Shown here: positions 4,152-58,762 of the stretch, in pieces
How the letters are laid out: each line of letters opens with the position of its first letter
How positions within the stretch are numbered: position 1 is the stretch's first letter
NCBI GenBank assembly: GCA_902768975.1
Contig: CACXMZ010000002.1
Location: 1-64,000 of the forward strand
DNA length: 64,000 nt
Reading direction: 5' to 3'
Source of the DNA: an uncultured Coriobacteriaceae bacterium
Lineage (GTDB): Bacteria; Actinomycetota; Coriobacteriia; Coriobacteriales; Eggerthellaceae
The notes under the pieces: generated by a model
What the model saw: only the letters and a program-made list of their open reading frames with translations
Database searches by the model: none
What the model was told of the DNA's origin: nothing
Program-made: the position numbers and the translations under genes

Positions 4152-4323
4152 GCTCGGTAGGCATCAAAGCGATGTCGTGAGTTCAATCTTCGCAATTTTT
4201 GCTGTTGCCAAAAATTGCACGTAACTAAGTTGACGAGCGTCAAGCGAGAGCGCATGAAAGAAAAAGCCCTAAATGGGCTTTTTCTTGAACAGCGGAAGCG
4301 GTCGCGATTGATGCCTACCGAGC
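4152..4323. repeat. Large intergenic hairpin element, family I, copy A
   Basis: Perfect 16-bp outer arms (GCTCGGTAGGCATCAA at 4152-4167, complement at 4308-4323) enclose a 140-base core. Two local hairpins sit inside: GCAATTTTTG (4192-4201) with CAAAAATTGC (4209-4218), and an 11-bp stem 4259-4269/4275-4285. A short palindrome TTGACGAGCGTCAA lies between them. The core between the variable stems is almost identical to copy B (17603-17782), while the outer arms and the second hairpin have different sequences that remain self-complementary. It fills the gap between two convergent genes and ends 2 bases from the aminotransferase stop codon. Confidence 0.85.
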
Positions 4324-4325
4324 CC

Positions 4326-5510
4326 TTATTGGTTGTAGTCGGCCTTGAGGGCAGCGAAGGCGTCGCGTGAATTCGTGATGGTTTCAGGTGCGATGCAGTA
4401 GCCAAGACGCACCCAACCTTCAACCCCAAAGCTGTCCGACGCCACAATAAGCAGCTCGTGCTTTTTGGCCTGTTCTGAAAACGCCTTGGCGTTAGGTTCG
4501 AGCGCACGCATCCACAGGTAAAAAGCACCCTGGGGCTGAATGTATTCGTAGCCCAATTCGTCGAGCATGCCCGTAAGCAATTCGCGATTGCGCTCGTAGG
4601 CAGCTAGGTCGGCTGGTTCGCCTATGCAGCGCGCAATAACCTGCTGGAAAATGGCTGGCGCGCACACAAAACCAAGGGCGCGACCGGCACCCGAAACAGC
4701 AAAGAACACTTCTTCCCAACGGTCGAGCGTATTAGGCACCAAAATGTAGCCCACGCGTTCACCAGGTAAGGAAAGGCTCTTTGACCAGGAATAACACACG
4801 ATGGTATTGGCATAGATAGCAGGTACCCAGGGCACCTCTACCCCGCCATACACCAATTCACGGTAGGGCTCGTCCGAAATAAGGAAGATGGTCGTGCCAT
4901 ATTCTGCTTGCTTGGCATTGAGCAGCGCCGCCAGGCCTTCCAAGGTTTCGCGCGTGTATACCACACCCACCGGGTTGTTAGGGGAATTGATGATGACCGC
5001 CTTCGTGCGCGGCGTAATGGCAGCCTCCATGGCATCCAAGTCAATCTGAAAGTCCGACTCGCGCGCGGGCACAGCAACCAACTTGGCACCATGGGTTTCG
5101 ATCCAAGTGCGGTATTCCGGGAAGAAGGGGGCAACTACAATTACTTCCTCTTCGCCTTCTAGCACGGCCTTGAGTGAAATCGAAAGCGAAGCAGCCGCCC
5201 CGCAAGTCATGTAGATATTGGCGCCCGCGTAATTCGTGCCAAAGCGCTGGTTCAGGTTTTCGGCCACCACGTTACGCACGGCGGGGTCGCCCGCGGACTG
5301 AGTATAGGCATGCACTTGGGCAGCGGGCTGCTGGGCAAGGTCGATCAAAGCCTGGCCCACCGAAGCGGGCGCCGGCACGCTGGGGTTACCAATAGAAAAG
5401 TCGAAGACCTTGTCTGCACCGATTTCAGCCTTCCGCGCCACGCCATAGGCAAACAGTTCGCGAATGACGGACGGTTCCTGGCCCATCTGCAACATCGTTT
5501 CGTTAAACAT
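4326..5510 (-). CDS. Pyridoxal-phosphate aminotransferase, class I/II (aspartate aminotransferase-like)
   Basis: The 394-residue fold-type I aminotransferase shows the PLP-binding features FSIGNPSVPAP, NSPNNPVGVVYTRE, ISDEPYRELVYGG and the Schiff-base lysine in CYSWSKSLSLPGERVGY. The C-terminal RLGYCIAPE segment carries the substrate carboxylate Arg. The ATG at 5508-5510 is preferred over one 6 bases upstream because the GAAAGG ribosome-binding site directly abuts the earlier codon but is correctly spaced from the later one. It resembles the broad aspartate/alanine transaminase group; the amino donor is not determinable. A stand-alone gene, convergent with the zinc-ribbon gene. Confidence 0.88.
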   Translation of the reverse strand: MFNETMLQMGQEPSVIRELFAYGVARKAEIGADKVFDFSIGNPSVPAPASVGQALIDLAQQPAAQVHAYTQSAGDPAVRNVVAENLNQRFGTNYAGANIYMTCGAAASLSISLKAVLEGEEEVIVVAPFFPEYRTWIETHGAKLVAVPARESDFQIDLDAMEAAITPRTKAVIINSPNNPVGVVYTRETLEGLAALLNAKQAEYGTTIFLISDEPYRELVYGGVEVPWVPAIYANTIVCYSWSKSLSLPGERVGYILVPNTLDRWEEVFFAVSGAGRALGFVCAPAIFQQVIARCIGEPADLAAYERNRELLTGMLDELGYEYIQPQGAFYLWMRALEPNAKAFSEQAKKHELLIVASDSFGVEGWVRLGYCIAPETITNSRDAFAALKADYNQ

Positions 5511-5552
5511 ATGCATCCTTTCAACACCCCATATGATACAGGTAGCTGGAAT

Positions 5553-17580: not shown

Positions 17581-17602
17581 GCTTCTTGTTTGAATATTAA
17601 AA

Positions 17603-17782
17603 GGGACTCTCGGGTAGGTATATGCGATGTCGTGAGTTCAATTATCGCAATTTTTGCTGTTGCCAAAAAATGCACTTAACTAAGTTGACGAGCGTCAAGC
17701 GAGAGCGCATGAGTGAAAACAATCCAGTGAATTGTTTTCACGAACAGCGGAAGCGGTCGCGATATACCTACCCGAGAGTCCC
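17603..17782. repeat. Large intergenic hairpin element, family I, copy B
   Basis: Perfect 21-bp outer arms (17603-17623 and 17762-17782) enclose a core nearly identical to copy A: GCGATGTCGTGAGTTCAAT, TCGCAATTTTTGCTGTTGCC, CTAAGTTGACGAGCGTCAAG, CGAGAGCGCATGA and GAACAGCGGAAGCGGTCGCG are all shared. The second inner hairpin is GTGAAAACAAT/ATTGTTTTCAC (17713-17741), unlike the one in copy A but equally well paired. The element sits between the terminators of two convergent genes, so the whole 17538-17844 gap is accounted for by two terminators and this element. Confidence 0.85.
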
Positions 17783-17790
17783 CTTTCTTA

Positions 17791-32995: not shown

Positions 32996-33134
32996 GGTCA
33001 GTTCGCAAACGAGTGTTCCGACTTCGGCGCCACGTTTGGATGTGGAGCGCACCTTACGGTTACTGGTATAGCGCAGGATTTTCACCCGCATTTCCTCATG
33101 TTGTTCGCACGGCCCTATTGCCGCTCGAACTGAC
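32996..33134 (-). promoter_or_regulatory. Cobalamin riboswitch
   Basis: On the minus strand the leader reads GCGGGTGAAAATCCTGCGC (33071-33089), then CCAGTAACCGT, then the B12-box-type GCCGAAGTCGGAACACTCG (33010-33028), in canonical order. A perfect 10-bp P1 stem closes it: GGTCAGTTCG (33125-33134) with CGAACTGACC (32996-33005). The lipoprotein ribosome-binding site GGAAAGG follows P1 within two bases, so translational control is likely. A TATAAT box overlaps the stop codon of the upstream S-component gene and may drive this transcript separately. Confidence 0.88.
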
Positions 33135-45371: not shown

Positions 45372-45619
45372 AGGCCTTCGGTAGAGGGTCTCATGCTACC
45401 GTTCTCGCTGTTCGTATGCGCTCGGCTTCGCCGAGCTGCATGCTCCCTCTCGGTCGCCTAGTTTGTACTAAACAAGCCAGAGGGCTTGTTTACTCACTGG
45501 ATGCCTTTCACTCATGCGCTTCACTACGCAAAACTTAGCTTTTAAAGTGCGAATAATGCTCGCATTATTCGCAAAGCTTGACGTTTTGAGTTAGCTTGAG
45601 ACCCTCTACCGCAAGGCCT
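45372..45619. repeat. Large intergenic hairpin element, divergent family I-like copy C
   Basis: Outer arms 45372-45393 and 45597-45619 are complementary over about 22 bases, with one inserted base. Inside are three strong hairpins: CTCGGCTTCGCCGAG (45421-45435), TAAACAAGCC/GGCTTGTTTA (45469-45492) and GCGAATAATGC/GCATTATTCGC (45549-45572). On the reverse strand relative to copies A and B, the segments CGTTCTCGCTGTTCG and CATGCTCCCTCTCGG resemble CGCTTCCGCTGTTC and CATGCGCTCTCGC of family I. It occupies the gap between two convergent genes. Confidence 0.7.
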
Positions 45620-58590: not shown

Positions 58591-58762
58591 GACATATTTG
58601 AGACCTTTTTGCCGAGGTTTTGTTGAGATTTCTGAGGACATATTTGAGACATTTTGGCGACCTTTTTGTGTAGCAATGTGAGGTGTTCTGGAGCGTAAAG
58701 TATGGCCTGGGTTCGGGCAAGAGAAGCACATTACACCGTAGAACACGTCTCGCCCGAACCCA
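58591..58762. repeat. Direct and inverted repeats in the 448-base gap before the surface adhesin
   Basis: GACATATTTGAGAC occurs at 58591-58604 and 58637-58650. Further on, TGGGTTCGGGC (58708-58718) and GCCCGAACCCA (58752-58762) form a perfect 11-bp inverted repeat with a 33-base loop. The rest of 58403-58850 is noncoding on the evidence visible. The region probably holds the promoter and leader of the adhesin gene, though no clear -10/-35 pair stands out. Confidence 0.6.

Follow-up and report, generated by a model that had tools for sequence, protein, structure and literature searches.

The window, i.e., the whole stretch of 64,000 nt that was analyzed, contains a hairpin element (family I) of which two copies had been described in the initial annotation. 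Both were confirmed in the sequence at their positions and, as claimed, between convergent genes: copy A between the genes for a zinc-ribbon protein and a class I-II aminotransferase (4326-5516, minus strand), whose stop codon adjoins the end of the right arm, and copy B between those for an SPOR protein and an acetate kinase. Copy A (plus strand) comprises a left outer arm (P1, 4152-4167), which forms a perfect 16-bp inverted repeat with the right outer arm (4308-4323), and a conserved core (4168-4307) with 87% identity to that of copy B. Inside the core lie the inner hairpins H1 (4192-4218, GCAATTTTTG..CAAAAATTGC), identified as an RNAalifold helix, and H2 (4258-4286), a perfect 12-bp inverted repeat (4258-4269/4275-4286). 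In copy B (plus strand), the left (17599-17623) and right (17762-17786) outer arms form a 25-bp inverted repeat with one mismatch and the conserved core spans 17624-17763; H1 was placed at 17647-17673 by alignment of the copies, and H2 (17713-17741, arms 17713-17726/17728-17741) carries the family loop TCCAGTGAA. Covariance-model matches were obtained for both (copy A, 4160-4317, 170 bits; copy B, 175.7 bits), and the folding z-scores against dinucleotide shuffles are -8.4 for copy A and -6.8 for copy B.

Besides these, the window holds a third copy of a divergent subfamily on the minus strand (45379-45611; covariance-model match 45604-45384, 82 bits, E 1.3e-20), whose arms read CGGTAGAGGGTCTCATGCTA and TAGCTTGAGACCCTCTACCG on the plus strand. 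A second repeat (GTAAACAAGCC..GGCTTGTTTAGTAC..GGCGACCGAGAGGGAGCATGCAGCTC..GAGCGCAT) is nested in its H2, as it is at the loci L019, L021, L024, L148, and L138. An isolated 15-bp inverted repeat with a 25-base loop (TGGGTTCGGGCAAGA/TCTCGCCCGAACCCA, 58708-58762) is present without a family I core. The sole Rfam match in the window is an AdoCbl-II cobalamin riboswitch (33006-33111, minus strand); with gathering and relaxed thresholds, applied to the whole window and to copy A, no match was found for family I.

The core of copy B served as query against the genome that contains the window (G000, 1.9 Mb, ~96% complete), which resulted in 43 matching pieces. A covariance-model search, as proposed in the initial annotation, was then carried out with a model built from 34 aligned copies and yielded 38 matches in G000 as well as 15 and 16 in G032 and G034, which represent two further species of this uncultured Eggerthellaceae genus. 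The family I core is 140 bp in length with about 38 copies in G000; it is near-constant across the copies, while the outer stem differs at almost every site yet is perfectly paired. A class-wide scan of 298 genomes revealed only G000, G032, and a weak match in G046, and diverged relatives of family I are carried by G129 and G031. Publicly available named records with the motif are mostly deer-gut Eggerthellaceae MAGs. Family I is a genus-restricted, dispersed, non-coding hairpin element, REP/MITE-like in scale. Four matches of the core pattern in viral contigs were rejected as chance hits in coding sequence. Two contigs of G000, C7 and C2 (L010, L016), both end inside one probable family I copy with matching arms and are probably adjacent in the genome.

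Two further repeat families were observed. Family II has the core AACTAGGGCACTCTTCACCACATCCC..GGCCTAGTAATTAGAC, which is flanked by stems of variable sequence, and often adjoins family I (L122, L180, L107, L012, L113, and others). Family III, found in the same genomes, has a conserved outer part GTCGAAGCGTCAGCGA, a conserved inner part GCCCCGCCTTTGCGCCGAAGTGTACTTGGGTAC.., and between them a variable paired stem of ~13-15 bp; its loci include L201, L183, L118, L149, L160, and L198, with the outer unit in tandem at L160.

The element is ordered as P1 outer arms, P2 basal stem (GCGA/TCGC), H1, P3, GAGCGCATGAG, H2, and CGAACAGCG, where P2 is short and already belongs to the core. GAGCGCATGAG is nearly invariant between copies and the H2 loop is TCCAGTGAA in most of them. 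Across the 34 aligned copies, two-sided changes occur at 46 of 55 pairs, including six of the seven pairs of H1, and 92.6% of the cells are paired, compared to 70% when shuffled and 38-44% when slid. In H1, H2, and P3 the two-sided changes far exceed both the shuffled and the slid controls. The wobble mismatches are biased as well: in P2, H1, and H2, 15 G.U face three A.C; in the arms of all copies, which are partly non-independent, there are 51 G.U vs. 21 A.C (two-sided binomial p 0.0005), and in the arms of G000 only, 24 vs. 9 (p 0.014). The folding strand indicated by this bias is the one given in the initial annotation. Since the stems inside the core covary strongly and the wobble mismatches are strand-biased, the core folds, as RNA or as single-stranded DNA, which are alike under the wobble test. 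H1 and H2 are located within the core and hence cannot be copies of a flank, which shows that the fold of the core is under genuine constraint.

The initial annotation had proposed a structured RNA with covariation of whole stems. With respect to the core, this proposal is borne out by the two-sided changes in H1, H2, and P3 and the excess of G.U over A.C; the reading of the outer-arm changes as covariation selected pair by pair is not supported. The arms are 10-30 bp long (median 21), mostly perfect or near-perfect, and private to their site in nearly every full copy. Their pairing is not due to chance, because the observed paired-arm score (median 17.4) exceeds the scores obtained by combining the left flank of one copy with the right flank of another (median 5, 99th percentile 9.2; controls for the genome-wide comparisons were drawn from the window and fetched loci). 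Sequence conservation of the arms between copies, named in the initial annotation as evidence against a structured RNA, was looked for, and apart from a faint trend no relationship was seen among the arms of different sites: copies whose cores are 97.8% identical have arms that match at 6-11 of 20 positions (shuffled null 7.6). At orthologous sites, where the adjoining genes are ~75-95% identical, the arms are either near-identical (19-22 of 22 positions) or wholly different (almost always 9-14 of 22; a single arm reaches 17). As the arms are unrelated between like cores and bimodal at orthologous sites, they neither move with the core nor drift, but are swapped as a block.

Selection for a structured RNA, which would keep all stems paired, outer arms included, while their sequence drifted, is supported by the covariation of H1, H2, and P3, the G.U excess on the core strand, and the still well-paired arms of old, divergent copies. 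Arms that are identical or block-replaced at orthologous sites and random between 97.8%-identical cores argue against it, as do the missing Rfam match, the lack of a promoter-like site, and the gain and loss of copies between close relatives. The core orientation is furthermore opposite at eight of the 17 orthologous pairs compared, which does not fit a gene that encodes one fixed RNA. Taken together, this explanation is regarded as unlikely.

In two of the inverted pairs, C1:108337/G034:C28 and C7:29079/G034:C36, the surviving arm is conserved at 19 of 22 positions, so that the core was flipped within its stem. Gene conversion between cores probably happens, too: the copy at C7:99325 has the same arms as its ortholog at all 22 positions, yet its core scores 0.928 against a paralog and 0.862 against the ortholog. 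This site, together with H2 types that vary between orthologs, would also be in line with elements that are old and fixed, with gene conversion homogenizing the cores while the arms diverge by site. The arms of vertical orthologs evolve very slowly, however, so a divergence to randomness would exceed the time available to the genus, and many copies are missing from one or both relatives. This scenario is accordingly held to be quite improbable.

MITEs are small, non-autonomous, and bounded by terminal inverted repeats. Dispersed non-coding copies with such ends would be accounted for if family I were an ordinary MITE whose ends are recognized by a transposase, and at C4:152154 a possible 12-bp direct repeat was seen. 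As the initial annotation had already argued, it is the terminal repeats that vary here, differing between sites, and by eye no consistent target duplication of fixed length was seen around the listed copies. A search of G000 (~96% complete), limited to the genes of four types of carrier enzyme (Y1 transposases, reverse transcriptases, IS110, and TnpB), revealed none. An ordinary MITE is considered very improbable, as the arm comparison already largely refutes it. The reverse transcriptase domain PF00078 is absent from G000, G032, and G034. RAYT-sized genes exist in relatives, and a RAYT link was rejected since the fetched transposase loci are without core copies. In G032, contig C25 (L097, L206) carries a Y1 transposase beside a TnpB gene, i.e., an IS605-type element, which is absent from G000. 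The consensus GGGGYTNGG was tried as a degenerate terminal repeat and discarded, the arm-to-arm similarity being barely above that of shuffled arms. The 5' arms are rich in G (204 vs. 106 C) and T (197 vs. 156 A); the place behind stop codons and the known asymmetry of stems account better for the G-rich 5' arm than this repeat does.

With a codon-usage gene caller, 58 sites were classified, of which 20 lie between convergent genes, 38 between tandem genes and none between divergent genes, whereas seven of the 39 adjacent gene pairs in the window are divergent. At tandem sites, the two orientations occur 28 and 10 times, many of the sites being orthologs of each other. The stop codon of the adjoining gene is often located at or within an arm. 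By eye, H2 of copy A, an A-rich/GC/T-rich variant found in its subfamily as AAGAAAAAGCCC-loop-GGGCTTTTTCTT, resembles a bidirectional intrinsic terminator, although it was not flagged by a simple terminator scan; copy B is flanked on each side by a separate terminator hairpin. Judged from its placement, family I is likely a candidate 3'-end hairpin that is tolerated or mildly useful, and H2 of the copy A subfamily may perhaps be a candidate two-way transcription terminator.

This placement behind genes, and arms that are G-rich on the 5' and C-rich on the 3' side, could also be explained if the core had entered the loop of a palindrome that was already there, e.g., a terminator between convergent genes. 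The comparison of about 20 occupied and unoccupied sites with a definable arm bears on this question, and in none of them were both arms found in the unoccupied relative. Exactly one arm was present at three unoccupied sites (each p 0.002), most other sites being too diverged to judge. These three exceed chance, since about 40 arm tests were made and the three are at the floor of the test and at the expected position. At the queA site, the right arm of G000 is present in the empty G032 (score 16, p 0.002) and the left arm is absent; the new left arm meets the gene at CGATG, which is common to both flanks. At C5:355564, the right arm alone is found in G034 beside a truncated core end. The left arm of G034:C58:11340 is native in G000, where the counterpart reads TAAAGGGTTTCGCTGTTCGGCAGAACAGCGAAATTAATTAG; in the occupied site, TAAAGGGTTTCG is kept on the left and its reverse complement is found on the right, rejoined at TTAATTA. 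The relatives at C4:152154 and C5:355564 may have lost an older element by deletion and would then not represent true empty sites. At the site of copy A, G034 (L167) has an unrelated long palindrome containing GGGTTTTTGTTCC, and G032 has no palindrome.

A pre-existing palindrome is supported by the G000 counterpart of G034:C58:11340, which has a native terminator-like hairpin with TTTCG/CGAAA in common with the arms. Against it, the arm palindrome is present in none of the tested empty sites, stems of at least 13 bp outside of family I elements number only two in 64 kb, and copy B already has its own terminator hairpin on each side. Insertion into existing hairpins is thus, like the scenario of old fixed elements, quite improbable. 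The one-arm sites likewise speak against selected covariation of the outer arms.

A DNA template switch, in which a flank is copied as its reverse complement across the folded core, is cautiously favored as the process that makes P1 and re-arms or flips the element. P1 would not be inherited with the core but made at the site: DNA synthesis would switch template at the folded core and copy one flank backwards, so that its reverse complement would come to lie on the other side of the core and be rejoined at short homology. P2, the base of the core's own hairpin, would prime the flank copy, P2-primed switching being the presumed agent, and later rounds may repair or replace the stem or flip the core in place. 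Template switching, by which a segment is copied in reverse during DNA replication, is reported to generate perfect stems in one event, multi-base compensation, stem extension, and loop inversion, with an excess of G-C over C-G and of U-A over A-U in stems (PMC8794818). Of these, one-step stems, multi-base compensation, loop inversion, and the G/T excess of the 5' arms match what is seen in family I. Its mark, one native stem half opposite its reverse complement that is missing in the relative without the element, is found at the three one-arm sites, and loop inversion with the stem kept in the C1:108337 and C7:29079 pairs. The observations agree more closely with template switching than with selection acting gradually, with an ordinary MITE, or with terminators that were present before the core inserted into them. 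Selection on the fold is also indicated, both by the G.U bias and by the arms of old, divergent copies, which are still well paired. The variable stem of family III, which lies inside conserved sequence, is unexplained by simple flank copying and would need stem swapping within the element.

In a related but rather doubtful reading, family I represents a class of mobile DNA in which insertion itself copies the target flank in inverted form, giving each copy private terminal inverted repeats, with only the folding core needed for re-arming. If the stem is indeed made during insertion, a mobile element would thereby gain its ends in a new way. When whole stems change and pairing is kept, this is usually considered the strongest sign of a functional RNA. 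The multi-copy natural series described here suggests that a single step of a replication mechanism, template switching, can lead to the same pattern, a point of relevance to RNA discovery based on covariation. Furthermore, dozens of parallel events are available in this bacterial system, so that the creation and replacement of stems and the inversion of loops can be followed at known sites.

Among known systems, group II introns and retrons need a reverse transcriptase, which is found in none of the three genomes, and elements with an IS110 bridge RNA or a TnpB omega RNA differ in that the IS110 and TnpB genes are absent from G000. MITEs differ by having constant ends, whereas the terminal repeats of family I differ at almost every site; no fixed target duplication was seen by eye. 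Intrinsic terminators share the place behind genes, and H2 of copy A resembles a two-way terminator, but family I has a 140-bp conserved core, its arms are mostly without a T-run, and copy B is already flanked by terminators. REPs are accompanied by RAYT (Y1) transposases, whereas the family I host G000 is without a Y1 transposase. A literature search for the same phenomenon returned only the study of template-switch hairpins (PMC8794818) and REPINs. The template-switch hairpins are alike in the perfect stem from one event, multi-base compensation, loop inversion, and asymmetric G-C and U-A pairs; they are described for single microRNA and rRNA stems, whereas in family I template switching would act repeatedly around one dispersed core, with a 140-bp loop. 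REP/REPIN-like palindromes are the nearest known kind, being short, non-coding, extragenic, dispersed, hairpin-forming, and present in many copies (PMC3116915). They are clearly different nonetheless: a REPIN has conserved inverted ends and a variable spacer (PMC3116915), whereas family I has a conserved middle and variable inverted ends.
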